Of a DNA stretch of 64,000 nucleotides, positions 16,101 through 62,100 are shown one piece after another (within the stretch, counting starts at the first letter, position 1; the number at the start of each line of letters is the position of its first letter). The DNA is from Branchiostoma lanceolatum (lineage: Eukaryota > Chordata > Leptocardii > Amphioxiformes > Branchiostomatidae): assembly GCF_035083965.1 (NCBI RefSeq), contig NC_089724.1, positions 5,628,001-5,692,000 on the forward strand, given 5' to 3'. The notes beneath the pieces were generated by a model. The model worked only from the letters and a program-made list of their open reading frames with translations, had not been told where the DNA came from and ran no database searches. The translations under genes were made by a program, and so were the position numbers.

Positions 16101-19100
16101 TGGACATCATGGGGTGTTGTCTGGTCATGGAGGCCAGCATGGTTCTCTCCTCTTCTGTCGTGCTGTTCTTGATCCGCTGCAGCAGAGCGTGGGGCTAGAA
16201 CGGGAAATGAAAACTTCCAGTAGCACACATTCGCTTTTCTTAAATAAACAATCAAGGACAACATTGTAGGAAAACAAGTTTATTAGAACTTTATTTGCAC
16301 GACAACTGTACAAGGTACAATGTGTATTCATTTGTGCAAAGACTGCAAAAGGATGAAAATGTACAGTGAAAAAAGGGTCGAAATACAAAAGTCATAAAAG
16401 TTCACATAACTGAAATTTAAGGTCGACAAAAAGTTGATAAAATACATGCTTTACTTATCCAACTACCAATTGAAAGAATTGTTGAAAATAGTTAATAAAA
16501 TACATAAACATGTAACACATCTTGATGGTAGAAATTATAATTCTAAGTAATTTCAATGACTTTACATCAATGGACGGGGGTGAAACCGTAGGTAGGGAAA
16601 AAAAGATACATACATAGTTTACCTTTTCTAGCGTGTCGGCAAACTTGACGATGAGTCGGAGGATGGTGTGGGTCTCGTTGTAGTCGTCGCAGTGATACGG
16701 CTCGTCAGCGCAGATCACGCGGATGGCCAGGCCTGGACCTGAAACAGGGGAAAATTAGAAGTCCGGAATCATTATTCTGCACTGAAGTCCTTAGTCATAC
16801 ACTGTAAACTTTTGTGGTGGTTTTATTTTTTGCAGTGACCTCTCCACCACAAATTATTGACACTGCCAATATGCCTTAGGCCACACCAATTTAATTTCTT
16901 GGTTAACGGATTAAAAAAAATATAAACATAAAAATCATGAAAACAGAAGGCTGGGGTGAAAACTTGCACCTCACCATGTTCACTCCCTGAAACTGTGTCC
17001 ACCAAAGTACAAACTTTCCTCTGAGATTCTGTTTTCCTGTTGATTTTCCAATCTAGCATTTCTTTTTAAATTCTGTTAACCAAGAAATTAAAATGGTGTG
17101 GCCTTACCTTTAGAATTGTTTTTTTAACTAAATCTTAAACACCTCGAAAACTTATTTTTCAATTCTTACCACAAAAGTACATGACTTGTGTACGACGCGT
17201 GCAAAAGAATTTACATTACCAGTCACTGGACTTACTTGTAGTAAGCAATATTTTTGCAAAGTGCAACAATCACGTATCCCCAAAATTGACAGTACAGCTG
17301 GACTTCCCCACAAAATCACACCCACTTGTAAGTAATCTCCAGGCAGATGAATGGGTTATATTATGTTGGTCTTTTGTAGCCTTTTTTGTGTTTCTACCTC
17401 TTTCTCTCTCGAGTGATCCGCGTGTTCTTGGGGCTAACCTCCCACTAGCTAGTTTGGAGATTATAATCATAACTACAGGGGATTTTCTAGAAAAATTGAA
17501 CAAGGGGGAGCACACACAGTAGAGGGCGCGAATTCTATGTACTTAAGGAAGAATCAATTGCAGCGTGTATGCTGGATATTAAGCTAAAATCTGAATTCAA
17601 CAAGGGGCACTGGGCTGAAACAAGAGAGCGCAGCGCCCCTGTAACTACAAGTCTGACCGACCTGGGAAGGGATGTCTCTGTACCAGGTCCTGGGGCAGTC
17701 CCAGGTCGCGCCCCAGCGCCCGCACTTCGTCCTTGTGGAAGTCCTTCAGGGGCTCGACCACACGACCCTGGGGGAAAGCAGACAGTTTGTGACATGGTAA
17801 GTGTTGTTGTGCAACACCAAGAAGGCAGATATAGAACAGAGCTTACTAATGGTAACAGTACTTTTAGATTAAGCCACCATGACAGAGCAATCTCCACCAG
17901 GCTTTTCTAAGTGATCATGGTAAAATTCAACAAAAATATGGTAAATGCCTACAATGTAGGAGAGTGAGGCACAGTAAGGGTCTCTTTTCCCCTTGCAGGT
18001 AAATGAAAACCTATGGCGGCCAAACTCCCCTTGCAAGTTACATGTACACATGAATTTTCCCTACAGCCAGAAATCTAATAGAGACGAATTACAGGGACTC
18101 TAACACTCACATTGAGTTTTTCAGCCATAGCACACACACACAGGCACACACTGACATACACTTTACCTTTACCTAGTCCCATCCTCATGCCTGAGGGTCG
18201 GGGACCATGGTAGCCTCCAGTATCAGCCTCCTCCACTTTCTCCTGTCTCTGGCTCTGTGGGTGCACTCCGCTAGTGAGAGTCCTGTCCATTCACGGATGT
18301 CGTCCCCCCACCTCCTTCTTGGTCTCCCACGGCTCCTCCTACCGTTGATCGTTCCTTGCAGTATGTGGGTGGTGATGTTGCCCGCTCTTGTGACATGCCC
18401 AAAGTATTGAAGTTTCCGCCTTTTTATGATGTTAAGCAGTGTTCTTCCCACTCCCAGCTCTTCTAACACAGAGTCGTTTGTGCGGTGTTCAGTCCAGCTG
18501 ATACGCAGTATCTTCCTGTAGCATTTCATCTCCAGGGCTTGTATCTTGCGGATGTCTCTGGCATGTAACGTCCATGCCTCACAGCCGTAGGTTACCACAG
18601 GCCAGACAAGAGTCCTCAGCACTTTCAGTTTAGTGACTGTCTTGAGGGCCCTGTCTTTCCAGATTACATCTAGGCTTCGGAGGGCTGCACGGGCTGCTCC
18701 TAGGCGTATGTTGATCTCATGGCTACAGCTGGCTGTTTGTTCTAATGTGGAACCCAAGTACTTGAATCTTGGGACCTGTTGAAGCTAGCTGTTCTCCCCG
18801 GCAAGTGGCTGTTACTTGAGTAGGTTCCTTGGCTACGGCCATCACTTTGGTCTTCTTGGTGCTAATTTCCAGTTGGTACTCACTGGAGGTGCTGTCTGTG
18901 GAGTCCAGCAGTTCCTGGAGTCCTTCCGGTGAGGTAGCTATCAACGCTATGTCATCGGCGAAGCGGAGGTTGTTGATGTTCCTGCCACTTACGTTGACTC
19001 CAATCGTGGGCTGCTCCTCCACAGACTCCCTCATTACCGCCTCTGAGTAGAAGTTGAAACACATCGGCGACAGCAAGCAGCCTTGTCTTACCCCCTTCTT

Positions 19101-22100
19101 GACCTCGAACCACTCTGTAAGGTCCTCTTCTACTCTCACTGCTGCTTGCTGATCCCTGTACAGGTTGCTTAACAACTGAACCAAGTGCCTTGAGACTCCC
19201 ATAGTTTCCATCACCTTCCATAGTGTCTGATGTCTAACTGAGTCGAAGGCTTTCTTATAGTCGATAAAAGCCATGAAGAGCTGCACATTGTTTTCCCTTG
19301 CCTTTTCCATCAGTACCCTTAGGTTGAAGATCTGGTCCCTTGTCCCCACTCTCTTCCTAAAACCCATCTGCTCCTCTGCAAACTCCTGCTCTGCCACTCG
19401 CTCCATACGCCGTAGGAGGATTCGGAGAAGGACCTTGCTGACATGGGATATCAGGGCTATAGTGCGGTGCTCCGAACAGTCAATGGTACCGGGTACCTTG
19501 GGGATGGTGATGAAGACAGACTTTACCCAGTCGGATGGCCATTGTCCAGTGCTGACGATCTTGTTGCAGAGTTTACACAGTAGCTTGGCTGTTGTTGGGT
19601 TACCAGTCTTCAGTAGCTCTGCGGGGATGTCATCTGCACCCGCTGCCTTGTTCTTTGGTAGTCGTTGGATCGCTTCGTCCACCTCGGCCTCCAGTATTTC
19701 CGGGAAGGTGTCACTAGCAGACAGGCTCCCTTCATCCCCTGGCGTGCTGTGCATCTCAGACTGGTTGTCCCCATCCTCTGTGTTGTCACTGTACAACTTC
19801 TCGCAGTACTCCTTCCATCTGTGAAGTATACTCTCAAGGTTGGTCAGTATACGGTTGTCTTCTGCTTTAATGTTCCTTTGTCTGGGCTGAAAGCCTCGCC
19901 GCAGTTTCTTGATGGTGGAGAAAGACTTCCTTAAGGTGCTGTTACCTTGAAAACCTTGTTCAATGTCGGCACACTGTTCTTCTAGCCACTTTGCCTTGTC
20001 GTTCCTTGCTTCCCTCTGGATTTGTCTATCCAGCTCCCTGTAGTGAAGGTCCCCGTTGACTGTGGTGTTACGCTGGGTTTTCAGGACCCGCCTTCTGTCC
20101 ATGAGGTCCAGTGTACTTTGTCTTATCCAGGGGTGGTTCGCTCTTCTGGGTGCTTTACCGAGGGTCTTTGTTGCTGTGGATTTTAATACTTCGTTGAAAG
20201 CTGTACAGAACTCGTCCGGTGTGCTTTCCTCTTCCAGCAGGTTTAGTGCTTCAAACCTATTGTTGACTTCAATGTTGTACTTCTCCCGCACTGCAGGTAC
20301 CTCTAGGGCTGCCAGGTTCAGTTGGTTCCTCCTGTTCCTCTGGGAATTCCGCTTGATCCGGAGCTTCAGGGTTGCAATTACAGCATTGTGGTCAGATCCA
20401 CAGTCCAGTCCAGGGTAAGAACGGCTGTTTGTGACACACTTACTCCATCTTCTGTTGATGAGTATATAGTCTATTTGATTCCTATATCTTCCCCCTGGCG
20501 CCTGCCAAGTGTAGCGTCTTCTTGCGTGGTGCTTGAATCCAGTGTTTGTGATGTACAAACCGTTGTCCTGACAGAATTCCACTAGGCGCTCTCCACGTTC
20601 GTTCGCTGTTCCTAGGCCAAAAGGACCACACACCTCCTTCTCGTCTCTGCCAGCTCCTACTTTGGCGTTAAAGTCCCCTGCTACCAACACCATGTCCTGG
20701 CTTGGGCAGTCTTGCAATATCTGTTGTAACTGGTCATAGAAGGCTTCTACGTCTTCGTCTTGAGCGTCCGCAGTGGGAGCATACACCTGTACGAAGGACA
20801 AGTTGAAGGGAGAGGCCATGATGCGCACGTAGAGGAGTCTGTCGCTTACTGCTTTGTAGGCCAGCATGCTCCTGGCAGCTACTTTAGACAGCAAAACCGC
20901 TACTCCCCTCCTGTGGATGTCCCCTCCTGAGTAGACCACAAGTTCCCCCCCTGTTGTGGTGAAGTATCCTGTACCAGTCCAATGAGTTTCGGCAACACCT
21001 AGGACACTGATGTTACACCTTTCCATTTCCCTGGTAACATTGTCCAGCATCCCTGCTTTGTACAGTGTACGCACATTCCATGTTGCAGCTCTTATGGTTG
21101 AACGTAGGTTGATTCTGCCGGGATTCTCCCTTCCGTCAGTAGTGGGCCTCCCGTCATCAGTATTACGTATACCATCTGGGTTTGGGTCCACCACATCATC
21201 CTCTGTCCTTGGGTGGATACCGACAGCATCCCCCTCTTCTCCAGTAGCCATTCGGGCGGGATTCAATCTCCTGGAGGGACCAAGACTCCCGTCCATCACT
21301 CTTCTTGCTGATACTGTTGTGCTTCCATAGTACTCATGGGAATTTTACGCCAGTGGGTTCCCAGTCCTCTTCTGGCAGTGACACCATTAGCTGGTGTCAC
21401 CCCCTCACGTACTTTAGCCCGCCTGCTGAAGCGGTGTACCGGGGTGTGGCGCTTGGAGCCAGCACGTGAGAGTTAGGGGATGAGTGAGGTACAGTGGTGC
21501 CTGTCCACCCTACTGATGGTCGGTCGGGTGCAGCAGACAGGCACCAAAGAAGCGGACCAAGGTACGATGTGCAAGCCCACGGTATGAACCGTGGTACGGT
21601 GTGCAAACCCGAGGTACAGACCTCTACTGAGAGACCTCTACTGAGAGCCCCCTACACCCCTGACATACACACACTGGCACAAATGGACACAAGAGATGTG
21701 AAGAAATATCATCTTCTTCAAGAACAGAGCCTTAGTTTCTTAAGACTGGAGAATGCCACTAATGAATGAGTGAATGGATAAGATAGAAAGAGATAGAACA
21801 GGATAAGGGAGGATAGCGTAAGATAGAAGATAGATAGAGTTTGCTCTTTTTTAGGACATGTAAGTAGTCTTACCTTATCCCTGAGCTCCCGTACCAAGTT
21901 GGTATCATTGTGATGTGTTTTGATGGCGTCTGCATTCTTACTAGCTAAGCTGGAGGCACTCTCAATCAGATCAGGTCTTAGGGTACCTACATTTGTACAG
22001 CATGTCAGTCAAGCTCACAAAAATACTTCCCAGAAAATATATAAACATTCTATAATATCCAGTTTCCAGTCTGATAAAAGAAACGTCCAAAATTATCTGA

Positions 22101-25100
22101 CATAATTGATGGTGAATCATTAGAAATTACTTAATGTTAAGAAAATATAAAGTCCAAGTCAAAGTGTTCTCAAACCAGTTTATCTCACTAAAGAGCTACT
22201 CTTCCACTGGTCGTGACAGAGAAGACAGACGCTATATCCAGTATTTACAGGTTCATTGTACATGGGAAATTCCCCTAGCTCTTTTCGACAAGTATAATGA
22301 CGAACAGTGGACCTGAAGTTGAAGGCTTAACGTCCCGTCTTAAGGACTGCAACCCTTTCCAGTAGCATGCGTGTCGGGTGAGCGACAACAGCCGGGATTC
22401 GAACTTACGAATTCTTGGTCCAGAGGCAGGGTCACTGACCACTGGACTATGCATGCAACTTCTAAGAGAATGGTTCATTAAGCACCAAAGGACAGTTCTC
22501 CCACCTTGTGCAAGGAAAACTTCTTCTGGGTTCAAGTTCATCTCAGAGATGACTTCATCTGCTACCTAAAAGCAAGTAAAAACAAAAAAATCCACTTCAA
22601 TATTACGTTGTCTTTAGCTTTATCTTATCACTAAGGAGGCGAATAGGAAGACATAATCTTTAGGGAAAACACTGTCAAACTCTTTTCAGATCCTCTCGAC
22701 TCTAGTCTAAATGATACAATTCGAAGCTGAAAAAAACAGATCATTCGAAGTATCCGATATCTCCGTAAGGTTGTCTAAATTAAGGAATCCACCGAAACTG
22801 AAATCATCATCAAACACTCATCATCGAAAACATGGGACTTTTTATCTTCCACTGCTTTCAAAGTCAAACCCCGCCTTAGATATAGAACCTTATTCTAGAC
22901 TAGCAATGTACATGTAGCTTAATCTTTGTCACTGTATCACATGTATGCCTTATGTTTCCCTCTATGTTTGTGCATTGTCATTAATTGTTGTCAATTTGCG
23001 ATTAGCCTATGGGCATGGATTTGCAATAAACTTGATTACAATATCCAAGTCACCTTCATGAATGTGTCCCCTATTATCCTTCTCTTGTCCTCAGGATTTG
23101 TTGTTCTGTTCAGCTGATCCGTCTCCCGTTTCTTCCCCTTGGGTTCGGCCTTGTTGATGGGGACGTAAGTTTTGCCATTGTAGAACTGGTGGGCTGCATT
23201 TACCACTGGGGGAAGAGAGAAGCAATATGACATTTTAAGGAAGGAATGGCAAAAAATCTCTGAAGGTAATAATAGCTAAGTTCTGTCGATGATCTTGTCT
23301 AAATAATATGCTGGCTGAAAATCTGGCAAAGGCTGTAAAATGTATCCAAGCCAATACAAGTCCAAATCCAGCTTGTTTTACTACTTTCAGTATCACTTTA
23401 TCTAGGAAACCTTACTTAGCCTCATACATGATTGTGTACCTACAATTACCACCCCAAAGCTGCTGAAAGGTGACTTCAGAAAAGCAAGTTTTCTAACAGA
23501 AAAGTTTTGACTATGAATATGTACTTGGAAAAACAGCACTCAAATTCTATCTGCAGGAATATTGGCATTCCCAGATTTCTTTTGATACTATAAATGCAGA
23601 AATGTTTGCGTTGATTTTGTTTTCCCTGTTATCGCAGCGACCGTTTAACCGCGAACATTTTTGTCCAATACTGTTAGCAGTGTGTGACTTAAGCGCTGAT
23701 GCAAACTTAAAAACACCCCATTTCCCCCTTAGCGCGAAATAAAAACCACGCGAACTGAAATGCATTTAAGTATCCTTAAAGCAACATGTAAGTGATCACA
23801 TGTACATATATTAAACTCAAGGGAGCACTGAAATTTCCTCACTTTTCAGGTCCAGTCCCAGCCTGGTCAGCGACTCGTACACCATCTGACTCTCGTTTTT
23901 CCGCATGAAGCCGTTGTCGATGTGCACAGCGATCACCTGATCTTTATCCAAGGCCTGAAAACAGCAAATATTAACCTTTAGCACACTGAAGTAGCCGTTT
24001 GGCTACCAATTCTCTATTGGTTACAGGGTTAGACAGCAGGGAGAAGGTTAACAGAACCAGTACATTTCAGGCATTGTATAGAGCACACAATAATATGGAT
24101 GGCAGGTTTCTACTCATGTAACATGGTTGCCTTCTGACTTTAGTTGACTGGTCTTACACAGCTGAAATACATGTACATTTTGTATGGTTAGGACTACATA
24201 TGTAGCACACTTAGCCAACCTTGGCCTCCCGACCTGGCACCGGTCAATGGCCTAGTTGAGGAATGGTTGGGAGGAAAGTTGTGGGAAGGTCCTGAATGCG
24301 AGACAGGGGCTTGACTAACCTTGTGTAACAGGGCAGCACACACTGCAGAGTCCACCCCCCCGCTGACCAGCACCAGGACTTTGTGTTTCCCCACGGCCTC
24401 TCGGATCTCCTGGATACAGCTGGTCTCACGACAGTTCATGGTGTAGGTACCATGGCAACCACAGGCCTGGGGAGGAGATTGGTAGGTGATTGATAAGTGA
24501 TTGACATGTGATTGATAGGTGGATCACGGGTGATTGACAGGTGATTGATGGGTGACTGACTGACAGGTAATTGACAGGTGATTGACAGGCAATTGATAGA
24601 TGATTGACAGGTGATTGATAGGTGATTGACATGCGATTGACAGGTGATTGACAGCAGCTCCTCGCTTGAAAAGTACCACTTTTAATGCAATAATAGATCT
24701 GAAAATGTTGGAAGTACATCTGTAATGCTAAGATGATTATGGTAGGTTGAATGTATCCATTCGTTGACCTGTTTGTCACTTTCCTGTATCGAATAATACA
24801 TTTACTCCGTAACATAGCTAACACTTACCACAATGTTGTGTATTACTGGGGTTATATGTTTGAAGCAGGTTTTATTCTTGAAGTATGATAAAAGAAAATC
24901 ATACTCAAACCTGGATAAGCTGGTTGTGGAAGTACATGTATATGACTTCATGTCAAAAATAGGTCATCATCATCATAGCTTGTCGCTATGAAAATAGGTC
25001 ATTAAAAGATTTTATCAGTATTTTGATCATGGTACATAAAATCACCTCAATAATTTTAAAAAATGGTCTGAAAAACTGACCTGGATCAGAAAGTTCTTGA

Positions 25101-28100
25101 GCATTTGTTGTCCGTTTTCTGTGAGGTCCACCTCTGGGTGAAACTGCACTCCGTACAGTCTTCTCTTCTCATCAGCAATAGCTGTAAAATTGAAACATAT
25201 TCTTTCAATTCTTTATTAAGAATATCATCATTGCAGACATACATATTTTCTTAAAGGCAGCCTGAATGATATTGATATTAACAGCTAAAATACAGATTAA
25301 CACACAAATATACACATAGACCATACATTCCTGACATGACAGGTACACATTGTTTTATCCTGAAGTCCGATTACAAAGTCTGATGGATCGGTGTAGAAAA
25401 GAGTCCTGTAATCGTTTGTTCTTGTTGGGGGGATGGAGATGGTGTGTTTGTTCCTGAGCGAATGTCCAGTAGCTGTGGATCTGGGGGGAGGGGGGACAAG
25501 GTCCTGTGGGGGGTGGGTCATCTTGGAGAGTTTGATAGCGGCATCCTCACGCCTAGACTTGAGATTGGGTAGTTTGGGCACATCAGGCTGGCCCGCTCGG
25601 CTGATGATGCGAAGAACTTTTCATTCAACAATGGCTATGAAATGAAGAACTGCATTCCTTCGAGTAAAAAGCTACAAATTAAGGTACAGTACCAACTAAG
25701 ACGATCAAGAAGACAGCACACTGACCTGCTACAATGTTCCCAGACTTTGCAATGACCTTGAAGCCATCCGCGACCTTGTCAATACTGTCCCCGTGGGTCA
25801 ACAGAACTTTTTGTTCCTTCTTTAATCCCCTAAAGAAAGCAAAAAAATCCAAAGTCAAGATTCCTGCATCTAAAAGTACATATAATTAGTATAACATCCT
25901 AGAGCCAAAGAAAAAAAGGAAAGTGATCTTGATCCAGTTTTAGCTCGCTGAAGAGCCAGTCTTCCACTGGTTGTGACAGAGAAGACAGACACTGTGTACA
26001 GTATTTACAGGTTCATTGTACCGGGGAAATTCCCCAAGCTCTTTTTGACAAGCACAATGAATACTGTCTTAAGGACTGCGACCCTTTCCAGTAGCAAGCA
26101 TGTCGGGTGAGCGACACAGCCGGGATTTGAACTCGCGGCTTCCAGTTCCAGAGGCAAGATCGCTAACCACTGGACTGCGCACTCTACATCTAAGAGCGCC
26201 TATACGAATTTTGGATTTAAACTGTGAGGTCAAAAATCATGATTAAATGTGAACATTGATGTAACACCTATAACATTCCCTACTTGAAAGGCAGAGCTGA
26301 GCTCTCCACGGTGATGGTGAACTGTCCGTCCTCGCGACCTGTGTTCCCCTGGACACTGCCTCCAAATGTGGAATTCAGCATCTACAGAACAGAAATCACT
26401 AGTTTTAGTTTCAAACATAATTCTTACTACCTACATATATGTGTACCTTGTTATTACATGTGCAGAAATTATACAAACTACAGTAAACTGTGATTCTTGT
26501 TTAAAAAATAGTAAAAAAAAAACCTACCTGCATGCCATAGCAGATACCAAGGACAGGTAGACCCATTGAGAAGATACCGGGGTCATAGCTGGGCGCATCT
26601 TCATCATTCACACACATGGGGCCTCCTGAGATGATGATTCCTCTGTGTGGACATAACATACAAACAGTTATTAAGGTTCTGCGTGACAGCACATCTGTGT
26701 TGGTAGAATTTTAGAAGCTAGTCATTATGAAATGGATTATGAATAAAAAGACTCTTTTTACACAACCAAGAGATTTATTCCACCGACATTTTGGCGACCA
26801 TCTGTCACCTTCTTCAAGGCAATTCCGACTGGTTCACAGCCAGTGACTTACCAACCCTGATGAAAGTATTCCCGAAATGGATTATGATTATGGACAGTAA
26901 TGTGTCCATATTGGCACATACGGGACTAAAAGTAGCGGATTCTTTTGTAGCTTTGTGTCTAAATTTTATAATATGAATAAAAAGCTGGAGCTGCACAGCC
27001 GAACATTTGAGTCCAATTCCAGTGTAGGATGAACTTGGATCTACAGCTGTGTTAGCCTGAGTACCAGCCTCCGTAGTGACCGCTGGCTCAAAAAAAATTT
27101 GCTTGCTATCCATGGTTAGGTAGGAGGCTGGTACTCAGGCTAAATCTGTGTCACAGTCACATGGCCTGTTCTATTTTACAACATGATGGAGTTGATCTCT
27201 AGCTTGGTATAGTAAATACAGTACAATGTATAACTGACCTGTATCCCGCCTCTTTGATTTTCTGGGGCGAGGTGTCGAGCGGGAGGATCTCCGAGTCCAC
27301 GCAGAGCTCACGCACCTTCCTGTCAATCACCTGGGACGTGAAGAGACATTAACTTGATCACAACCATCTTCCTCTTTGTTATTACATGCTTAACCTCATT
27401 AAGTTGAGGTCTCTAAGTACGGTACATAAGACGTACACAAGACTGTATGGTTTGATCCACTCACACCAGGAAGGACCTCTACTCTTTTTCATAAGTGTGG
27501 TGGGTTCTTTAGTGTGCTCGAGGTATGGCTCTCTTCAAACACGGAACCTCAATTCCCCAATGGTAATACAATCATTTCAATTCAATTAGCTTATCAAAGT
27601 TTTCCCAATTGGTTTGTCAAAGTTTGCTCATGCTAAATACGGGACTTGACCATAAATACAGGATTTTCATATCACACCATTTTTATCATGTTGGAGTGTA
27701 AAATTGTATGTCTGTTATACCAAAATGCTGCCGTGGAAATGGAACAGTACTTCAGCTTGGTCACCCGAATAAGCTCGTTCACACTTCCTAGAACGCATGC
27801 GCGGCGAAAGAAATTGTGGGTATAAAATTTCAATCACTATGAATATGACACCAACAAAAATCCTGCACAGAGATGACCGTACACCGCCAAGAAGGGAACA
27901 TCCGCTGATCTTTTCTAGGGCTTCTAAAAAATAAAGTATATCTTCCATCTGATTAGCCTGGGTACCATCCTCCGTAGTAACTGCTGACTTGATCTTTTCA
28001 CTTCCATGGTCAGCAACAGAAAAGAATGAGCCAGCAGTTACTACAGAGGATGGCACCCAGGCTACCATCTGATAACATGCACCAGACATAGACACAGCCA

Positions 28101-31551: not shown

Positions 31552-34224
31552 ATGAATGCCATCTGCAGATCGCTGAGGACCGTCGCCGGTCTTCACCAAC
31601 ATCAACAACTTCTGACAAGGCCTTTTTCTATAGGTAACAGTACATGTCATCTCTGTATCTTTATCTGTATAGCCAGCCTTTTTCTATATGGAACATTGCA
31701 TATCAGGTAATTAATTGTATGGGATGTTATGACACAGATCATAAAAGAACCCAACACACTTATCAAGAAGACTACGGGTGATCAAGAGTGCTTGTGACCT
31801 GCAGCAAAGCCACATTGCACTACTACTAGTACTAGTGCACTACTCGTGCACCTAGCCAAAAAATTATCAGTCCTCACCGCAGTTGAGGATGACTGTTTTA
31901 CCTAACACATCATTATGCATAACAACAGTAACTATGAATACAATGCAGATAGTGTTCTGGAAATCCTTTTAATTCATGTACTTTTACTGTGTTCTTTTTG
32001 CAGTGGAAAGAAAATGATTTTTTTTAAATTTTTAATTTATTGTAAAAGCGATTCTGTAGTACTAGTACAGTGTAGTCATACAAGGGAGACATCTTATCAG
32101 TGTCATGAATTCTGAGTGGAGAGGTCACCGTGAAAATGACACCACCGCAAAAGGTCCAGACTTAGGGTATACTGTAAATGCAGAAATGTATGCGGGAATT
32201 TAATTTCGCAGCAGGGAGAAAATTGAGTGTTTGAAGTGGTATTGAGTTTGCATTTGAAACGATAGTAGCGCTACAGTCACACAATGGAAGGGCTTTTTGC
32301 GGTGGTTTTAAGTTCACGGTAAAGAGTTCATGGCCAAAACTGTGAACATTAAACCACCGCGAACATTTCTGCATTTACAGTATACCGTAACCTTCTTCAA
32401 AAACCTGCCCACCACAGCCCCAGTTCTGCTGTACTGGAGAAAACAGCCGCGCCCGGTGATGCCAGAGCCACGCCTGCTGGACGAGTACGAGGACCACGCC
32501 TTCAGGAAGGTGTGGGCGCGGACTCCTCCTGGGCCCAAGACGTCTCCCAAGGACCAGTGGACCAAGGAGAAGGCCATGTTTGGTTGCTATGACTACCAGG
32601 ATATCTTAGGCAAGTACAAGAATTTAGAAAGACTTGTTGAGCAGCACAGAATGGTTCATATCTGGAACTCTGCTAAAGTATATAGCACAAGTGTGCAAAC
32701 TTTCTGTGAGGTATTACTGTATTCATAGCTTTAATCACATGGTTTACCTATTGGAAATCTGCAGTATAACCTTTAGCACACTGAAGTAGCCGTTTGGCAC
32801 CGAATTTCCCATTTTTCTTCCGCTGTTTCGACAGTATATCTGACAGTGATTTAATCATTCATGTCTGATAACCTGTTGCAGGTGACCACCCGTACATCCA
32901 CCCTCGCCACCTGTGTCTGGAGGGGCCGAAGCACGTCAGAGGTTTCCGTGGCAACGAGCTGCAGAGACTCATCCGCAAGTACGTCCACCACTGGCTCTCC
33001 TATTTCCTGCAGGGCTCGAAATACTGGGTGCATGTGCACCTTCGAAATCCCCAAAATTAGAGATGTGTACCTAATTTTTTATTTTAGGTGTACTGGTGCA
33101 CCTAGATGTCTTTGTAGGCTATAGGGTAAAGGTGATATTATATACAGAATATTCCTGAAATTTAAGTATCAGAAAAAGTAGTAGTGATACAACCTTTAAT
33201 GTACTTTGATGTATCACTTTAAAATTTTGAAGTTACAAAATGTCAGTTTGAAGTTCTTAAGCAGTAGGGTTTGCAAATATGTTTTGCTGACATTCTACTT
33301 TATCTTATGTTGTGTACCCCCAAAATTATTTCTGTGCACCTAAATTCTAAAGAATTCCCAAAAATGAATTTCGAGCACTGTGACCTGGCATAAATCATAT
33401 GAAACTGTCATATACTGTATGGGATGAAAATGCAATATTTTGTGTGATTGCATGTGACTTCAGAGCTGCCTTGATGGTTGGATGTATTGAATCAGATGAA
33501 TTACTCACAGTAAATACATCCATCACTGCATCTTTTCTCCCCTATTTCCTGACATAAAGCATCTGGTACAAATGCTAACCATGTAAGGGTGTTTACGTGT
33601 GACTGCACGCCTGCCTTGATGGTTGGATAAACCTAAAGAAAGTCATACCTATAAATTTATGAATACTTATACACACTCACTCACACTCACTATCCGGTTT
33701 AGCATCTTCTTTTTCCCATCATCTGGGGGTTTGACGTACTTGCACGCGGATGGGGAAGCTTGGTGGCCGCTTGCCAGGTGCCTCTGTCCTGTGGACTCAC
33801 ATTGTGTAGGTTAAGGTGGTGGAAGTCCTCCTTGATGTTATAGTAATACATATTCAACTTTACATGGCAAGTTACAGGTTGGATTATGGAGGACAATACT
33901 TAATCGTACTGTGAGCACAGACAACCTATATAAAAATATGGGAGATGAGCATCCTCCTCTTATACATGTAGCAAGGGCTCCATATTTGTCTATGTGTTGG
34001 ACAACTCTTCAAATGGTTTTTCTCAACTTTTTTTCATGTACCTGGGCTGAATGACTTCTGTATTGTGTGCACACTAAAATGGTAACATGTTTTTCATTTC
34101 TTTCCTATTTTTCAGGAAATGCATGGCAGGGAAATACATGGGAGAAGAAGACTGGAAAAACCTTCAGAAGAGGATCAACTACCTGTATAGAAAAATGAAC
34201 AGAAAAGGAGTGTACAGAAATTAG
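31552..34224 (+). CDS. MRPL51: Mitochondrial ribosomal protein L51 (mL51)
   Basis: Four exons, 31552-31633, 32418-32609, 32882-32978 and 34116-34224, give 480 nt and 159 aa; human L51 is 128 aa. It is a component of the large subunit of the mitochondrial ribosome. The N-terminus (MNAICRSLRTVAGLHQHQ) is basic, Ser/Arg-rich and lacks acidic residues, as in a mitochondrial targeting peptide. Family motifs are KAMFGCYDYQDILG, GPKHVRGFRGNELQRLIRK and the basic C-terminus LQKRINYLYRKMNRKG. The second intron starts with GC (TTAG|GCAAGT) and ends in CAG; only this donor keeps phase. The acceptor chosen for exon 2 (CACCACAG|CC) is the one that fits phase, and it lies about 33 bp after a MITE. The exon 1 to exon 2 junction is the least certain part. 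Confidence 0.9.
32168..32384. mobile_element. ACTGTAAATGCAG-family MITE next to MRPL51 exon 2
   Basis: TATACTGTAAATGCAGAAAT at the left is mirrored by CATTTCTGCATTTACAGTAT at the right, with TATA at both edges suggesting TA-type insertion. The interior is TIR-extended with CGCGAACA segments. It is a full copy of about 217 bp. Confidence 0.8.
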
Positions 34225-36258: not shown

Positions 36259-39119
36259 TTACTTGCCGTAAATACTAGGCCAATGTCCCAAACACGGCCA
36301 ATAGCGGCAGGAGAAGTAGCAGCGACGCCACCCGCGCCACCAGTAGTAATAGAGACACCGACAGCGATAGTACTCGCGGCAAGTCAATCTCTTCTTACGG
36401 CTCTTTGCACCTGAAATTATAAGATAAATATAGAAGAACTTTATTGCGCGACTATTGTAGCAGGTACAAAGTATGGCAACAACAGTAAACATAGAACAAG
36501 ACATAAGTATGGAATAAAATTTAACTACAACAAAATGACTATCTTAGGTTTTACATGATTCAAGTTGGGCTAATTTTGAGTATCATTATTTTTTCTATAA
36601 ATAACAAAACAATCTTTTAAATATCTAATAAATATGAATAAGCAAACAAGACAGTGAATAGATCAGCAATCATCGATTTCACGTCCTTGTGAAAATCTAT
36701 TGTACAAAACTGATTCACGCTGACAATGATATGACAGTCAATTTTGATTCTACACAAACTGAAAACTTCAGCTTATTTACATGTGCATGTAGATATTGAA
36801 CTTAAGATTTAAGTAACAAACGCATTGATATCTAAGTTCAATATCAATGCATTTGTTGTGAACTGTTTGACTATAAAGACCTGGGTCGTTTGAATAGTAT
36901 TTCCAATGTTTTTCCCTCCTGAAAGCAAAGGAAAGGCGAATACTGATCATGAACAGTCAAACCGACTTTAAAATTTAACTTAACTGCTTTTTTTGTAATT
37001 GTTGTTATTCATATCATACTACTTCCTATTGGGCAGCAGCTTCGAGTTTTGATGACGTGTGAAGACTTTTGCTGACACTTTTAACATACTGTACGAACAT
37101 TTTAAGATATTGCAAGGAAAGGGCCCTAATCAAAAATCGTTGCTTTTTCATTTAAGTTGTGTTGTTTTGAAGAAAACTAGTATCACCGACACCTCCCTAG
37201 GGGCATTTGAACACATCAAGAGCGGACTGTTTAGTCGTTTTTAGCAGAAGTAATTGTCCTTACCGTCAGCAGCAGCCGCAGGCGCGTTGTCCGATGCCGA
37301 GGCGACTTCTCGAGTGACGGCCCAGTAGACTTCACGGGACTTACAGAATTCAAGCATGTTCTCGCTCAGGATCGACTTGTCCACCTGTCCTCGACTTCCA
37401 TCCAAGGTGAGGTTCAGTCCTTCGCCAGCCTCAGCCTCCTCTACTTTGTCCTATACAGAAGAAACAGGGCTGTTCTCATAACGTTTTATGTGTACTGGTA
37501 TTCTTCTAACGAAATGAAATGCTTTTTTCACGATACAGACTGAGAGAAAATCGTTGTACCCTTACCTCGTCGCCTTTGTCAATCTCATTTGCCAGCTTTT
37601 CAACAGCGTCCTCGTTAGATGCACTGCCCTCGACGACGAAACAGATATGGAGGCCGGAAAACTTGTATGCTGTCAGATCCTACAACAGAAAGAACAGAGT
37701 TGGGTATGTACCTGTGACTGGTGAGAACTCGACAAAGCGTCCCAACGTGGCATGAAAATTTCAGCGGAGAAATAAATAAGAACAAGTTAAGAGGGGTCTA
37801 AGAGGAGTACACTGAAGTCAGTAAAAGACAGACAATGATTATCAAAGATGCCCATGTAGCTTTCGTCGGGGTAACTTTTACTCACGTTTTTGGTGTCGAA
37901 CATGACGGCAGTCTCTCCATCCTCGCTCTTGGTGTAGAAAGCCTCAGTCTTCAACTCCACATCAACTTCTATCTTCTCTTGGATGACCTTACCGTCATAC
38001 TTCAGCTTACGGTTGGTCTGTTAGTCGGTGTCAGAGAGGAACAATCACAACGTTAACATCTTAATCTGAATTGTTTAGGGCGCCATTTGTCGTAACACAC
38101 CAGCTTTGTCACTACGTTAACATTAGTATGAAGCCTGATTGTTCAGCCAGTAAATTCAATTCTCATTCAGCGCATTACACACGGGCCTTGCAGGCATGCG
38201 GTGGCGGCTGGCTGATCATAACACCAGACAACTGCACTAATCTACCGTACGTGTCTGAGGACAACGAGTTCCATTCTACTCCCCAACATATACATGTCAA
38301 TGTTTCTTGTGGCCACGTACTCTGACCGAGGCACTTCAAGACTACATGTAGTTGTTATCAGTTTATCTTGTACATTTATTTTTACAGTCGACGCCACAAG
38401 CACACGCATGATCGGCGCCTGAATACCAAGCTTTAATGAAAATCCCGGTTACTGTAAATGCAGAAATGTTCGCAGTGGTTTTCTGTTCGCGGTTTTCGCG
38501 GTGAACTGTTTACCGCGAATTTAAACCCACACGGTAAAAAGCTGTTCCATTGTGTGACCGTAGCGTGCGCTACTATTGTTTCAAAGGCGAAGTCAAAACC
38601 GCCGCGCACACTTCAGTTTCTTCCGTCCGCGAAATTAAAGCCCCGCGAACACTCCTGCATTTACAGCATAGGCTACCCTGCGGATTTAGGCGAAGTAGCG
38701 TTACATACGAGAGGCGTCTCACCGTTAACTTGTTGTTGGCGTCCCTGGACAGGAACACGCCGAGCAGGGTGGCTCCAGTCACCAGCAGCACGAGGAACAC
38801 GGCCCCCGCTACAAGCCCGGTCTTCAGTTTCTCCTGATGAGCAGCAAGGTTCTGAGGAGGTAAATGAAAAGTAAGCGCTCATTAAAGTTTATTATTAGAT
38901 TCGACGACGCGACTACTTTCTGTCGTCAGACATAAGATATAGATACTCCCATTTGTGTCTCAGATTACACAGCACACACAGATCCTGTATATGTTTAAAG
39001 CATTGAAGCTACGATTGAAAAAAACAAACACGAAAGCCTAATACCTTGAAGTCGTCCTCAGGATCTGCCGGCGGTCCCGCGTAGGGGGGAAGGGGCTTCT
39101 TGTCCTCGGTATAGCTCAT
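36259..39119 (-). CDS. BRICHOS-domain type II membrane precursor with Cys-rich cationic C-terminus
   Basis: Six exons (39119-39045, 38851-38723, 38017-37886, 37679-37566, 37450-37264, 36410-36259) give 789 nt and 262 aa; all borders are GT-AG and in phase. Residues 1-35 are a cytosolic Pro/Asp-rich head, 36-59 a single membrane span, and about 68-200 a BRICHOS domain with its conserved aspartate (D109, FDTKNDLTAY) and two cysteines (C125 in HICFVV, C186 in LEFCKSREVYW). A furin-type site RKKR (217-220) precedes a 42-residue tail with six cysteines (223, 229, 231, 243, 247, 252), eight Arg/Lys, one acidic residue and 14 aromatics. Two known precedents fit: chondromodulin/tenomodulin, where a Cys-rich domain follows BRICHOS with C-x3-C-x5-C spacing (here C-x3-C-x4-C), and annelid arenicin-type antimicrobial precursors. 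The BRICHOS call is firm; which class the tail belongs to is inference. A splice acceptor just 5' of the ATG implies an upstream non-coding exon. Confidence 0.88.
38450..38667. mobile_element. ACTGTAAATGCAG-family MITE in BRICHOS intron
   Basis: TACTGTAAATGCAGAAATGT at the left and CTGCATTTACAGCAT at the right bound a 218 bp non-coding element, with long imperfect inverted ends carrying GCGGTT/AACCGC stretches. It sits 56 bp from exon 2 (38723-38851). Confidence 0.78.
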
Positions 39120-43380: not shown

Positions 43381-43990
43381 ATGAAAACGACCCTGGTGTT
43401 GCTTCTTGTTGTCCTGGTCATCTCTTTCGTGATGATGGCAGCGGAGAGCTGTGGTAGTACAGGCAATGGTGGTGCCGGCGGTGGCCACAGTAGTGGGGTA
43501 AGTTGTATTTTTGGCGATGCCTCAGTGGCGAGCCAAATGATGTAGTATTGTGTGCAGTTTGCAAATATGCTAGAAATTGCACAGGCATTTGTCTACAGGA
43601 ATATTAATCCCAGAAGAATGTTTAGAATGTTAGTCAGCAGCACAAAGGATAGAAAGTGGGTCATGCAGCCCCCTGGGGGCATTCCTCCCAGAGAACCTAG
43701 ACAGGCAGCTACATGTGTTAGCCAGATGTCAGTCAGAGTCAGGCTTATGTATACATGATCCATCTAAGACCTCAGATCTAGAGTTGTATTGTTCGTTTCT
43801 AAAACAGTGTGTGGCTGTTACAATATTTTTTTAGATGTCTTGATGCTGCTTCTTTCAACTGTAACATTTAATGTCTTTCTTCTGGCAACGGGTCATAACT
43901 GCATCAAGTTTGTACTGATACAGATTGTGCACACGCTGCTTCAATTACCTATAACGTTACAAGCTGAATAGCTAAAGGGCATTAACCCCG

Positions 43991-50063: not shown

Positions 50064-53000
50064 ATGGCCGTTGATAGTATCGTCGTGTCCATCCTACTCG
50101 TTTTCTTTGCAGCTTCAGATGAAGCCATTGGAGCGGACCCGCTAGGTTAGTTTTCTTAACATTTTCATTCACTTTAAATGTGTTTTTTTTGTTGGTCACT
50201 TAAGATTTTAATTGCCATTTGCACGAAGAATGCGGCCCATCATGCGGCAAGGAGTGGCAGAGTTTTTAAAGGGGTCATAAACTCTAGAGGGGGGGGGTGT
50301 GCTATTTTCCAATAGATAATAATTCTACAAATTGAAATATGCTCAACATTCAAAGTATGCCATAAAGTGCCCGCTGGACCTTGCGCATCAAAAAGCATTC
50401 AGTATTTTACTAAATTTAACTAGACTCCGGAAAAAACCGCGAGCAGAAGAGAGAACCGGAGCTAGAATAAGATACATGCCCGATATATCCAATACCCAAT
50501 CTAAAGACAAGATGTAAGCATACGAATTGTCTGTGGATGACAGTCACACTGCAAGGCCTATGTTGTAAAAGTCAACACTTGTAATACGGTAGCATAGTAC
50601 AAAATAGAGGTATAGAATAAAACTTAACATCCTAATTATAATACGATAAGAGCTAGCATGATTCTTTGACGTAGCGTTACAATCGAGTGAGTCTTATCAT
50701 TAGTTTCAGTATTTTTATTAAATGGCAAAGCAGTCTTATATACATTTACCTATCTTAACATTATGAAGGTTGTTGCATCTAAATATACATTCACATCTGT
50801 CTGTAGCATTAAGACTCTTTAAACAATTGTTGTATTTGATTTGACCAACGTGAATAACTTATTACGTAAAACACCATATCTAGAGCATATCATTTGAGGA
50901 CTGGGAGTGTGTACCTTCTCAAGATACCTGGTAAGGTCGGTCACTCGGCCTTTTCCGGAGGTCACTCGGCTTTTTCCGGAGGTCGATGTATTTTTGAAAT
51001 CATCGCCATTTTCCGAGATACCCTCGGTGGGAAATGTCAGGCTGGGCGTGACGGGCACGCAAATATCTTTATCAGATATCACTGAGACAGGCAAACAGTA
51101 TGTTGTAACGTGACGCAATGTCGCGGCGGTGAAGATGGGTGGTATAGAATTTATCCTTTCATGTTTCAAATACAAACAGGTACTGATATCCGTATGGTAA
51201 AGACTACAGAACACATCATTTGGTAAGAATATTCAATAATCTCACCCCCCAACACACACACACACATGAGCTTGAGTTTATTAGGATACACAATTAGCTT
51301 AACAGATACTCTTCCTGTGGTCCATTCAAAAACATGACTGGACAAAACTACATGACACACATGAACACCACAGAATTTACATATGTACATGGTTCATGTG
51401 TTCGAGCAGTACTGTACAGTAAAGGGCTACTCCATAAGGCCACCTTTACACTAGAAGGCGATCTGTAATAAGCGACTATACAGGGACCAAAATTACATTT
51501 TTTAATGGTAAGAATATGATGCAAGATGTTAAGGTATGATTAAAAAGGCAGCAAAATACACAAAACGTTTGAAAATTCGCTCTATATTTATGGAATTAAT
51601 TGAGCGGTTTGCCAAATCGTTAATCGCTCAGTGGTTGCAGAGCGGTCGCAGTCTTTAGCGGATATAGCATGTAAGCAACGGTAAAAGTGAACGAGCGAAT
51701 AATTAGATGGCGCCAATTATAATCTGCAAAAATATCATCTTGACCCTAGCTGCACTTGTCTTTAAGCCCAGTATGCAAATATAATATAGCTACCGAGTGT
51801 TCTCTCCGCTTTTTGCGAAGAGCAGACTCGGGAGCTATAATAGGTTTGGATACCAGGATACTTGTCTTTTTAACTGGAAAAATGTTCTTTAAACCTGTTC
51901 GAACAATATGTCTAAAAGCTACCCACTTGTTCGTTTCCTGCATGTGTCCAGAGAGCCGTCGAGCTGACCCTGACCTTGTGTCTATATCCGGGTTCTCCTC
52001 CGGCGGGTCCTTCGCTGTGCAGTACCATGTGGCGCACTCGCAGAGCATTATGGGAGCTGGCGTCCTTGCTGGAGGTACGCAAATATTCTTATTTCATTCT
52101 TTTTTCTCCAAATCCATGACCTTAACCCTTGTCCTGCTGGCGTTTTTACGCAGTTTATCTGAACTATTTGAATTCTTAATCAGGCCATTGGTCCTTGACC
52201 TTTCTGCGCTGCTGTGGCATAGTTACTTCCGCGTCTGGTGCGCATCGCTGCGGTGTGACGCGTTCAGTTGAGAAATACCCCCCAGCGGCACATATACGGG
52301 ACCCGCAAACAGGCACTGTGCAACCCATATATGGATATGAGCGCAGCTGGACAAGGGTTTTAACTATCTCAATTCATTTCAATTCTTTATCACCATAATC
52401 AACATCTCAGACATACATTTTTTTCTAAATCTCTAGTGATTCATCACGTTGATTTGTAACAAGTCTCCTGAAATAAGTTTTGTTGCTTCATTCATTCAAT
52501 CAACGACGCACTGACTTCCTCTCTCTCTTTTAACCTTCCCTTTCATATATGTAGTACATATTCTACATTCCATCAGACTATTATCTTCATAACAAATGAC
52601 GCAAACTATTTGTACGTTATATAGCTTTTTTTGGCTTCTATATCAAATGCATTCAAAAAATGCCAACGTGAAGCGAGTGTCATTTGACATATACATGTAA
52701 ATGCTGCCATATTTGAATTTGGGTGTATGCATACTTCATTTCGGTTATCATGTGTTATATTTTAAGAAAATGTTCTCTTTTTTCCGTGATTGTCCAGCGC
52801 CTGGACAAGGGTTTTAACCATTTCAATTCATTTCAATTCTTTATCAACATAATCAACATCTCAGACATACATTTTTGATTTGTAACAAATTAAATCCCCC
52901 CAAATAAAATTTTGTTAATTTATTAATCCTAAGTTACAATTCATTTTTTGTAGTCCAGGTGATTTGTCTTTGTAGTTTCAAAGGTGTATACCGGGTGTTG

Positions 53001-56000
53001 TCTTTTTTTCCGTGATTGTCCAGCGCCTTATCACAGCAGCGGCACCATCCTGTTCAACATCCCCGGTCTTCAGCACGACACGCAGACCTTCTTCCAGGCC
53101 AACCTCGTGGACGATCCGTCCAACATGGCGACCGACAGGGTCTATCTCTTCCACGGCTCTCACGACCTCATGGTGCCGGAATGTGCGCGGGCTTTACATT
53201 CGCTTGATATAATGATGGTGTTTCGCATACAGTCACCATACGTATTCCACTTTTAAATAATGTACTACGTTCAGGTTGCAAACAATGGCGCCCCTCACAT
53301 GCTAACTAGTCTCTACCAGACTAACCGCGCCGGCTATAGGGAGAACATTTGCCGGGGGACTTTGGCCATGGAGGGTAACATTCGCAGCTGCAGTTATGTT
53401 GGACCCTATCTCCATAGCCGACTCCCTTCACATAGTTGACTCTATTTGTCCAATTATGTTGAGCCCAACATACTGTTGGGCGCAACATATTGTGTTCGTA
53501 TGGTTTCTTTCTCCTGTCAAATCTTGTAATCGACTCAGCTCGGTCGTCCCTGGACCAACTGAGCTGAAATTTGGTATGCAGGTAGAGTGGGTAAATACCC
53601 TGGGAGGCTTTTTTCAATTTTTCGATATTGACCTTGAAAGTGATTTTATTGATTTTTTTTCTGACCAAAAACGTACATTTTGGCCTCCTGTGCCCTGGAA
53701 ATACATCCAAATGACCTGAAATTTACTATGGGGGTACATTGAACAAATATTCAAAGAATCCCATGCGCACTTTTGGCATACAACACTTCAAAATACGATT
53801 TAAGAGGGTATTTTGGGGACAACATCGGCTATTTTCCTCATATGGGGTCACTGACCTTTAGGTCACATCTTTATTCATCTGGCCAGGTGGACTAATTCGG
53901 TCAGCCAATGAGAGAGCACAGATTTATCAAGCTCAACCTGATTGGTTGAAATATTTCTTATTTTAACACTGCATGGAAACAAAGATTTCTAGAAGTTTGC
54001 AAGCTTGGACACTATGGTGAAACCTGACATTTCCTCGCTATGTACACGAATTTTCTACCCCTGTGTAACCAAGATTTGACACACAATAGTGCAGACAATA
54101 GTGAACACAAAGTGTCCAAAGTTTCCCACCTTAGGAAACATCCCGTGTCGTGACGTTGACAATAACATTAACAATAAAAATAGAGAGTTGTGAAGTGCGT
54201 GAAAATTTACCTTGAGCAAGGAGGCCCTTGCTTTGAGTAATTGTTTAAAGTTTTTGGCTAAAAATGACGTAAACGATTTCAAATACCAACATTGCAGACA
54301 TACAACAAACGTTAGCCTCTATGCCAAAGTCGTTTTTTGCATGGGGAGGGAAATGGGCGAAACAGTGTTGCATTTGCTCCCGCAAATGTTGCCTTTCTAG
54401 TTTCTACTATTTCCCCAGCGACCCGGGAGGCTGGTAGAGTTACATGTTAACGCGGATTTTCCATTCTACTATGAGTAGGTTACAATTGCGCCGGTGCCCG
54501 TACGGGAGTGTAGTCCCGGCCGGGCCCAGAAGCCCCATTTTTGTCCCGTTGGACTGCCGGGTACCGGGGGATACGTCCAGGTGCTCGCACAATTACCCCA
54601 CGGCGTCGATTTGTTACCGGGCCCCGCGTTGATTTTATGTCCGAGTTAAAACTGTTCGGGGTCCCGGCCGGGCCCCCAAATTGCCCGGCAGCCACAGGGT
54701 GTCCCATGGGGCCACGTAGGGGTCACATCCGTCAACTACTTAGCGGGGGACCTTTTCTAATTGGGACCTAAGCATAAACAGGCTCTGAGATAATGTTTTA
54801 GAGTGCTAAATATACAAAATCCAGGCTGCTGTTCTATGTCCGTATGGCCATATGGGTGAAGAAACAATGATTTTGTTTGCCTGTTATTTCACAGATGCCA
54901 TGACTTCTTTGAGAGAATACTACAAAGGATTTGTGGACAACAACAACATCAAGGAAGTGCTTGACGTGCCTGCATTCCACGGATTTGTGAGTCGTTAAAA
55001 CTGCGATACTGTATAGCTTACCGAGCTATTGAGATCAAGTAGGGTAAAAGTTTTTGAGTTTTGAGTTTTTTAAGCTTTGTAATTAGCGTAACAGATTATT
55101 AATAATTGCGGCAACAAAGTCATCAAAACCGCATTTATTCAGTCCTTAAACCGCGTGGCCCGATGACCTAAACCATTTCATCGGGCATTCGGCGTGGTCG
55201 AACTTGAGGTGTATGTCGTTTTGCAGATGGAGTTGCTTTGCTCAATGGATAGACAATTGACATAAGCCGCGAAAAGCCATATCTCTCTCTCTCAAAAGGG
55301 TTTTTTTCTCACCTCATTTTAAAACGTTTTTCCACCAGCCGACCGCGGACTACGGCGGGGAGTGCGGACATCTTGCCGCACCTCTGTACCTCAACAACTG
55401 TGGTTACAACGCCGCATTTGAAGTCCTGAACCATATCTATGGAGGGCAGCAGCCTCTGACGGTCAGCAGTAAACATTTGATACATTGCTGCGTGTCAATT
55501 TTGACCCTTCATAGCAATCTCCAACCGGAGTGGGGGGGGAAACCATTTGGGAATCCTATATATCAAATTGTATTGAATACTGTCACAAAATTAAATACAA
55601 ACTCATTTTATTTTTGACCATGTCATCATCATGTTACTTTCTCAACTTGAGACAACTTGTTACCAACACATGCTTGTAAAGTGTAACACATTTTTTTCCT
55701 TGCATGCAGAAACCCGACGCTTTCAGTCACGTGGCAGCCCATGGAGAGGTATCGTGATTTATATCTATTAAGACTTATCCGTAAGAAAGAAAGAAAGAAA
55801 GAAATTGTCCCTGTACAACTTTCCTCTCTCGCTTTGTATCATTCTGTCGACATAGTAGTGTCTATTCTTTAAAAAAGTTAAGTTACATATAAACACCAAC
55901 CTCCCCAACGTTCATAATCCTAATTATGCGTTGTTGCCATCTGTTTCTAGAATGATGAATCGGATGCATTTGCTGGGCGGTTGAGCCTACAAGAATAAGA

Positions 56001-59158: not shown

Positions 59159-62100
59159 ATGTGGGCATTTCTACTTCTGTTGGCGGCTTCTGGCGTTGTC
59201 TTGGTCGATGGAGAATCCTTGGGTATGTTCTGTTTCACATTTTACATTTTTCAAATGAACAAATGCATTTACGATATAAACTATGCAATTCATCTGGGAA
59301 TTTTCTTCGGCTTCGGTGACCATATGGTAAACGTTTAGAATGATTGCAAGGCTGACAAACATTGAAATGTCGTGAATGTCGTGAGGTGTACGTATAGATT
59401 CTACAGTGCTTACAACATTTCTTTGTATCTAATGTATTGTCAAATATAAGCTTAGTTTTTTCAGGCATGTTTTTTCTCAATACTTGTCCCGATACAATGC
59501 ATATGTCCCGAGATACAATGTATATGTACTGAACTACGAGTGCAAATATTTAAATTGTCCTTGGGAAGGAAGCCATATGTTGAGTCATGGGACGAAAAAA
59601 AACAAGAGCAGAGGACTGCAGATTGCTGTGCTATATAGGTGCATGTTTAAAGGGGCGATCTAAAAGATTGACCAAGAACTACCAAGGCATCTGCATGCAT
59701 TCAACTTCAGTACAGCCCAGTCTGTGGCGTTGTTGTTAGCCTCCTTTGCAGGCTCGAGCTCCACGGAGGTATGTTTTGACTTAAAAAATGTTGTGCCTTT
59801 TCCTGGCTGTATATCTGTTCTGATTGTACCCTGTTGCTTTTAGGCCAGAACTAATATACCAAAAAAAAAAACACGTTTTGAGCCGGTACAGCCTGGTAAG
59901 GAGCCTACGATGTTGTGTCCATGTTTACGTTACTATCATGATTAGAGAAAAGATTGGCACTTTATTTGTTTTTAATAGGACGACACAGAGCGGACCCTGA
60001 CCAGGTTTCCGTTTCCGGTATGTCATCCGGGGCCTGCTTCGCCGTGCAGTTTCATGTCGCCCACTCCAGGAGCATCATGGGAGCTGGCATTTTTGCCGGA
60101 GGTTTGTTTGTGAAAAATCAAGTTCTATAAAAGATTATAATTTTTACCTGCTTCATCCAAGGACATTGCTTCATCCAACATGATATTGGCGCATCAGGTA
60201 TGCAACAAATTCTTAACGGAAATGTTGACTAAGAATATCATTGTCTGCTAAGACTTTTGTTGTCAATGGCAACAGCAACAGACAAAATGACGTCATAAGA
60301 TGACGTCATATATCTTTTAGCTATCGGCCATCTTGGGTTCGCCATCTTGAGTCCGCCATCTTGAATTAAAAAAAAAAATTTAATTGACTGACATTTTCCA
60401 CAGCTCCGTACCTTTCTTACGGCAACCCGCTGATTGATGTGTCCGTGCTGGAGACCAGCACCAACGCCGCCGCCCTGACCTTCAACATAGACGGAACCAC
60501 CAACATGCGGGGGGACAGGGTCTACCTTTTCACGGGAGCCAATGACGTGGTGGTACCATCAGGTGGAAAAAGCCCCAGCGTTTCTTTTAATCCTTCGAAC
60601 CGTATGTTAAGATGGCCGTGAAATTTGAAATTTAGGCAGACAGCATGGGAGGAAGAAAGGAAGGAAGGAACGAAGGAAGGAAGGACAAAAGAAAGGAAGG
60701 AAGGAAGGAAGGAAGGAAAACAGGAAAGAACGAGAAATTGAGTGATTGATTGGTTGATTAATTGATCGATTGATTGATTGAGCGAGTTAGTGAGTGAGGG
60801 ATCATGAGTAAGTGAGTGAAAGAACAAATAGATATATGTATGAATAAATGATTGATTAGAATAGGTGTATAAATCACGACTATATTTAGAGTAACAAGGG
60901 CACTTAGCTAAATGTAATCATGCCAGTGCCAGGCATTTGGGAAATCTAGAAACTAAAGAAACGAATAACAACGTTAATGGATGCTGTATCTGCTGCACCT
61001 AGCCAGTAGCGACCATGCTGAGCAACAAGGGCAATCATACCAGTGGCAGGCATTTTGAAGAAACAAGAAATTAAACAAATGAATAACATTTTCCTGTATT
61101 TCATCACTAGCGACCATGCGCCAGACGTGGGAATACTACAAGGCCTACGTCGAGAACAACAACATTCAATTTGTCGCCAACTTGCATGCTACGCACGGCA
61201 TGGTCAGTGTGTATCATATACAATTACGGACTGCTTCATTTTCCAACATAGTCTTAGTCAGTGAATGTTTGGGACCAACTTCACGTCCTTTTACAGGTTA
61301 ATGATAGCGAAACCTAAACTCGTCCGCACCGACGGGCGCCGCCAACTTGGGATTCTGACACATTCCCTTCGCCATCTTTTTTTGGGTCCAAATATAGGCC
61401 AGACAGTTCCAAGTTTGCAGTACCATAATGGCTTACTAGTCGGCGCTTCAGTACCGTAGAATTTCAAAGTTGTGCCTTCATGCAACAAATAGACGGTACT
61501 GAATCGCCGACTAGTAACCCATGGTGGTACTGCAACGTTGGAACAGTGTGGCCTACATGACGCACTTTCATGTCATGATACGATTGGTCATGCCTTTTGT
61601 TTGAATATCCTACAGCCCACCGCGGATTACGGCGGACAGTGTGACCAGACCAGCCGGCCCAACTACCTGAACAACTGTGACTACAACGGTGCATACCACG
61701 CGCTCAACCACATCTACGGCTCCAGCCAGGATCTTGTGGTAGGAGATTTATTCCCACACCTATGGTGCTGTGCTTGGTGGTCTCATTCTCGCTTCCTATC
61801 GACACACAACAGAACAACATCTCTTGTTACTCTCTACTCACTGAAAGTAATTCATTGCCGTAACAGTGCTTTTGTTCGTCTCTCCGTGTTTTATTCCTGG
61901 ATCGAAATACAGAAAGTGCGGTTAGGTAATTTCAGTTTCTCAAACGACATACTTTTAAGTCAAAATAGTTCTAACGGATTGATCTTAATAAGTGTTCATT
62001 CGCGAACATAAATCTCAGTCAACTTTTCTGCCCGTTTGTTTTCAGAAACCCGATCCTTACAGTGACGTCGCTACCCGTGGACAGGTAAAGATTCACCTGG

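Follow-up and report, generated by a model that had tools for sequence, protein, structure and literature searches.

A stretch of 64,000 nucleotides from the amphioxus Branchiostoma lanceolatum (contig NC_089724.1, positions 5,628,001 to 5,692,000; referred to as the window) harbors on its minus strand a gene encoding a BRICHOS domain, behind which a furin-type motif and a basic, aromatic, cysteine-rich C-terminus of 42 residues are located. The GC content of the window is 42.75%, the observed/expected ratio of CpG is 0.74. Six coding exons of the BRICHOS gene are joined in frame to a predicted type II membrane proprotein of 262 amino acids. The internal exon borders of this model are all AG/GT, and the introns are in phase 0 apart from the last one, which is in phase 1.

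Gene model

39045..39119, minus strand: exon 1 (coding part), residues 1-25, predicted short cytoplasmic N-terminus; ATG at 39119; donor GTATTAGG
38723..38851, minus strand: exon 2, residues 26-68, hydrophobic span within; AG/GT borders, in frame
37886..38017, minus strand: exon 3, linker, then start of BRICHOS with conserved D109
37566..37679, minus strand: exon 4, BRICHOS, with the first conserved cysteine (C125)
37264..37450, minus strand: exon 5, end of BRICHOS with the second conserved cysteine (C186) and the motif LE-x-C-x4-VYW, then an alanine-rich spacer
36259..36410, minus strand: exon 6, GAKS-RKKR, predicted mature peptide and stop; preceded by the phase-1 intron; acceptor TTATAATTTCAG; TAA at 36259-36261
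36388..36399, minus strand: RKKR, furin/proprotein convertase motif, predicted cleavage site
36262..36387, minus strand: predicted mature peptide of 42 amino acids, cysteines at 3, 9, 11, 23, 27 and 32, ending in Y-G-K

Since an acceptor-like TTTCAG is found 12 bases upstream of the ATG, a 5' non-coding exon is likely to precede exon 1. The hydrophobic span of exon 2, judged by eye, covers approximately residues 36-59 (38750-38821) and is taken as a type II signal anchor. Exon 5 is spliced in frame to exon 6 in the model; a search of the 853-base intron between them gave no further in-phase exon of at least 30 bases followed by a GTRAG donor. A transcript joining both exons and the release of the peptide are predicted from the sequence. 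With tblastn, no second copy of the gene was found within the window, and a tandem antimicrobial cluster was rejected on this ground. Motifs typical of immune promoters were not found at the gene, although only few would be expected by chance. Intron 2 contains a repeat copy (38458-38680, plus strand) similar to one at 32162-32374 (minus strand), the frames of both starting with MQKCS(R/Q)WF. They look like a miniature inverted-repeat transposable element and presumably resemble elements known from amphioxus.

BRICHOS domain and C-terminal peptide

An earlier note on this DNA had postulated a BRICHOS precursor, and the domain was confirmed in the predicted proprotein. Residues 103-193 match PF04089 with 37 bits (cut-off 25, E 4e-9). 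D109, C125 and C186 fall into columns invariant with chondromodulin (CNMD) and tenomodulin (TNMD), for which human sequences were used in the comparisons; they correspond to the aspartate and the two cysteines described as conserved in BRICHOS domains (PMC2751770). A short N-terminus is followed by a hydrophobic span, a linker, BRICHOS, an alanine-rich spacer, RKKR and 42 C-terminal residues; the order of hydrophobic span, linker, BRICHOS and C-terminal region is the layout of the BRICHOS superfamily. The net charge is -12 for the BRICHOS domain, -14 for the pro-region and +7 for the C-terminal peptide. In ITM2, an acidic BRICHOS region is likewise reported to face a basic C-terminal part (PMC2751770), and anionic proregions are described for annelid antimicrobial peptide (AMP) precursors (PMC6265681). 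The BRICHOS domain appears to be closest to CNMD/TNMD, in a comparison set without annelid precursors.

The peptide following RKKR, LTCREYYRCRCLYYYWWRGWRRCYFSCRYWPCLGHWPSIYGK, contains six cysteines, 14 aromatic residues (F/W/Y), eight K/R and one E, exactly as counted before; the motifs C-x3-C-x4-C (C23, C27, C32), WWR and YYYWW emphasized in the earlier note were located as well. In the window, 721 ends of open reading frames (ORFs) provide 42 or more open codons; at least six cysteines are found in 12 of these ends and at least 14 aromatic residues in one. Both properties coincide only in exon 6, and a chance ORF was rejected accordingly. The inner loop, LYYYWWRGWRR, is richer in aromatic residues than the Cys83-Cys99 loop of CNMD. 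The Y-G-K end is a possible amidation signal; alternatively, the glycine may be inherited, since CNMD and TNMD end in ...LG-x-V.

Five models of the peptide were obtained with AlphaFold2 from the single sequence. The best one shows a two-stranded hairpin with a predicted local distance difference test score (pLDDT) of 74 (others down to 54), which is too weak to settle the disulfides. Neither Foldseek with this hairpin (E up to 10) nor a Pfam search with the peptide alone (E up to 1) gave a match, while the only PDB sequence match (E 0.2) was regarded as chance. Among viral contigs, eight pattern stretches were obtained with the protein query and 107 with an alignment query (A1), and among prokaryotic contigs 134 with the latter. 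No relative was found in either collection, as expected for an animal gene. A description of the peptide was not found among the open-access papers retrieved on BRICHOS or LECT1 in amphioxus; other print may hold one.

Cysteine pattern compared to chondromodulin and tenomodulin

In a MAFFT alignment, C3, C9, C23, C27 and C32 of the peptide are placed on C283, C293, C313, C317 and C323 of CNMD, i.e. five of the six cysteines align, and C11 is located two columns ahead of C297. Four of six align with TNMD. The cysteine spacers, 5-1-11-3-4 with a tail of 10 residues, correlate with those of CNMD (9-3-15-3-5, tail 11) at 0.96, a value equalled by 193 of 20001 random cysteine placements; for this test, two of the eight CNMD cysteines (C282 and C286) were excluded by choice, on the assumption that they pair with each other. 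The CNMD disulfides other than Cys83-Cys99 are taken as background. The register-sum test for nested disulfides is weak, being passed by 14851 of 200000 random placements. The sequence alignment of the peptide with CNMD is marginal (matched by 50 of 2000 full shuffles and by 76 of 2000 with cysteines fixed), and the one with TNMD is at chance level (469 and 553 of 2000, respectively). For seven control peptides, the corresponding numbers out of 2000 were 189 to 1956 when all residues were shuffled and 121 (hBD1) to 1961 with cysteines fixed.

The positive charge had been regarded as a pointer to an antimicrobial. This argument does not hold, because the cysteine domain of TNMD carries +8 (CNMD +4), so that basic charge cannot separate an antimicrobial from tenomodulin. 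The aromatic share is 0.33 in the peptide compared to 0.15 and 0.17 in CNMD and TNMD.

Proposed function and alternative explanations

The explanation preferred here, tentatively, is a secreted host-defence peptide released from a BRICHOS proprotein of CNMD/TNMD-like descent. The peptide would represent a compact CNMD-type domain that lacks the glycosylated half. The acidic BRICHOS domain would shield the basic, aromatic and strand-prone C-terminal segment in the secretory pathway and allow its three disulfides to form. A furin-type protease would then cut behind RKKR and free the 42-residue peptide, which might be processed at its terminal Gly-Lys to an amidated form of 40 residues. Nested disulfides (C3-C32, C9-C27 and C11-C23) would staple a beta-hairpin displaying the LYYYWWRGWRR loop, comparable to the aromatic loop of CNMD closed by Cys83-Cys99, and this cationic hairpin could bind membranes or microbes.

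The likeness to CNMD has limits. The peptide has six cysteines, compared to eight (four disulfides) in CNMD, and the hydrophilic glycosylated domain of CNMD is absent, only L-T being found between RKKR and the first cysteine. In addition, the assignment of cysteines to CNMD is not firm, because a pairwise alignment places C3 on C286 and C9 on C297, different from MAFFT.

The same BRICHOS and cysteine evidence also speaks for an alternative in which the gene is related to CNMD/TNMD but serves in the matrix or in cell signalling. The aromatic loop and the tail of the peptide would then act on a receptor to control growth or migration, and the peptide would not be an antimicrobial. CNMD is reported to be active only with its Tyr/Trp-rich Cys83-Cys99 loop and to reach full potency only with its tail (PMC3492907), and the mature ChM-1 of the ascidian Ciona (110 amino acids) is reported to act on growth and tube formation of mammalian cells (PMC5852487). 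However, the glycosylated domain, given as 50 amino acids of mature CNMD (PMC11173128), has no equivalent here, two of the eight CNMD cysteines lack a counterpart, and the aromatic share is approximately doubled. A matrix or signalling role of this kind is considered rather unlikely, though not negligible.

Unlikely, too, is a lineage-specific AMP of the annelid type, in which the likeness to CNMD would be convergence in a cysteine-rich hairpin. The layout is shared, including the cationic C-terminal peptide behind BRICHOS and a basic cleavage site; the alvinellacin gene is likewise interrupted by five introns and encodes the AMP in the last exon (PMC5431198), precursors of Heteromastus (H. 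filiformis) are described as transmembrane in five of 13 cases (PMC10745061), and AmBRI-44a is a defensin-like BRICHOS peptide with four disulfides (PMC11767717). On the other hand, CNMD/TNMD appears to be the best BRICHOS match, within the comparison set described above, and the annelid beta-hairpins named in the literature consulted carry none to two disulfides. The earlier note had left the choice between an arenicin-like peptide and an early chondromodulin/tenomodulin form, and its interpretation is supported in part; CNMD-like descent is more likely than descent from annelid-type AMPs, while the eight cysteines and the glycosylated domain of CNMD were not found. Summed over both descents, a defence role is probable.

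It is highly improbable that exon 6 yields no functional released peptide, either by read-through of exon 5 (stop after GKDNYFC) or in a decayed copy: the gene model is a prediction from the sequence, and the viral and prokaryotic collections yielded no relatives, but the splice sites are consensus, the frame is open, a furin motif and six cysteines follow the end of BRICHOS, and the composition is unique among the 721 ORF ends.

A host-defence peptide of CNMD/TNMD-like descent might also be a living intermediate, i.e. a minimal CNMD-type domain that is still an inducible host-defence peptide. The ancestor of CNMD and TNMD, which inhibit angiogenesis in cartilage and tendon, would then have been an antimicrobial hairpin chaperoned by BRICHOS, and both the glycosylated spacer and the fourth disulfide would be later gains of the vertebrates; as it stands, we consider this scenario unlikely. 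According to one review, BRICHOS antimicrobials seem to be limited to marine worms (PMC6780910); according to another, CNMD and TNMD are confined to vertebrates (PMC11173128), yet ascidian ChM-1 has been studied (PMC5852487). The BRICHOS precursor described here could link the worm antibiotics with the vertebrate cartilage proteins, and a cuttable six-cysteine peptide with features of both families raises the question of whether chondromodulin originated in host defence. This question is directly testable, given that a gene annotated as LECT1 is reported as the most poly(I:C)-induced gene of amphioxus (log2 ratio 13.78, RNA pooled over time points; PMC5752451). The latter gene is not equated with the BRICHOS gene of the window. 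The same report discusses LECT1 beside LECT2, which is described as not homologous in PMC11173128.

Other features of the window

The gene product of an exon at 32312-32728 (plus strand) matches the mitochondrial ribosomal protein MRP-L51 (PF10244, E 6.6e-8), and this neighbor is useful for synteny. A multi-exon gene at 6311-9126 (plus strand) has a possible mature N-terminal histidine (VAGH-SW). When three pieces were joined, weak similarity to AA11 lytic polysaccharide monooxygenases was obtained (E 0.026 and 0.054); in Pfam, four pieces of exons remained without a match at E 0.01. Exons at 24194-26710 (minus strand) are GMP synthase-like, with a match to glutamine amidotransferase class I (E 3.1e-9, 26504-26710) and weak ATP-pyrophosphatase-type matches below the cut-off (24197-24523, minus strand); the gene, named by eye, is presumed to encode GMP synthase. 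The frame at 43381-43500 (plus strand), beginning with MKTTLVLLLVVLVISFVMMAAESCGSTGNGGAGGG, has the look of a signal peptide and a GTAAGT donor shortly downstream. It is possibly the first exon of a small, secreted glycine-rich protein and has no Pfam match. Exons at 52963-53256, 55261-55617 and 61493-62011 (plus strand), two of which have the motif PTADYGG...YLNNC-x-YN in common, are tentatively regarded as polyhydroxybutyrate depolymerase-like; the first and the third had no Pfam match at E 0.01.

Repetitive elements include, at 1745-5370, an array of an 81-base repeat (2068-5044) that occurs in both orientations; duplications of 122 bases are located on either side of the array (1745-1984 and 5128-5370). 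Long reverse transcriptase-like frames of 873, 199 and 338 amino acids are found at 18185-21344 and 62984-64000 (minus strand) and, as recognized by eye, presumably belong to retrotransposons without long terminal repeats.

Comparison with known BRICHOS proteins

The annelid BRICHOS antimicrobials (arenicin, alvinellacin, capitellacin, HfBRI, AmBRI-44a), compared by description and not by BRICHOS sequence, share the acidic BRICHOS proregion, a dibasic or furin cut and a small cationic C-terminal peptide with the gene of the window, and alvinellacin also its intron number and last-exon peptide. They differ in having none, one, two or four disulfides, and most have signal peptides. ITM2B/BRI2 is a type II BRICHOS protein as well, from which a furin cut frees a short C-terminal peptide. 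In a survey from 2009, BRICHOS sequences of amphioxus and echinoderms are reported to be divergent and to cluster, as a small group, close to ITM2 and group A and apart from LECT1/TNMD (PMC2751770); the gene of this window may or may not be among them.

With CNMD (LECT1), the gene has in common the predicted type II anchor, BRICHOS, a basic furin site ahead of the mature form (RKKR here, RERR in CNMD), a cysteine-rich aromatic C-terminal part with CR-x2/3-PC, and a short tail with Trp and Gly. For TNMD, the alignment with the peptide is no better than shuffles, and four of six cysteines align. The CNMD gene is described as having seven exons, of which exons 6 and 7 encode the C-terminal domain, and a mature form of 120 amino acids with eight cysteines and the glycosylated domain 1 (PMC11173128), compared to six coding exons, 42 amino acids, six cysteines and about twice the aromatic share here. 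Because both the eight cysteines and the glycosylated domain of CNMD proper are lacking, the gene is filed as a variant beside the CNMD/TNMD family and not as a member of it.
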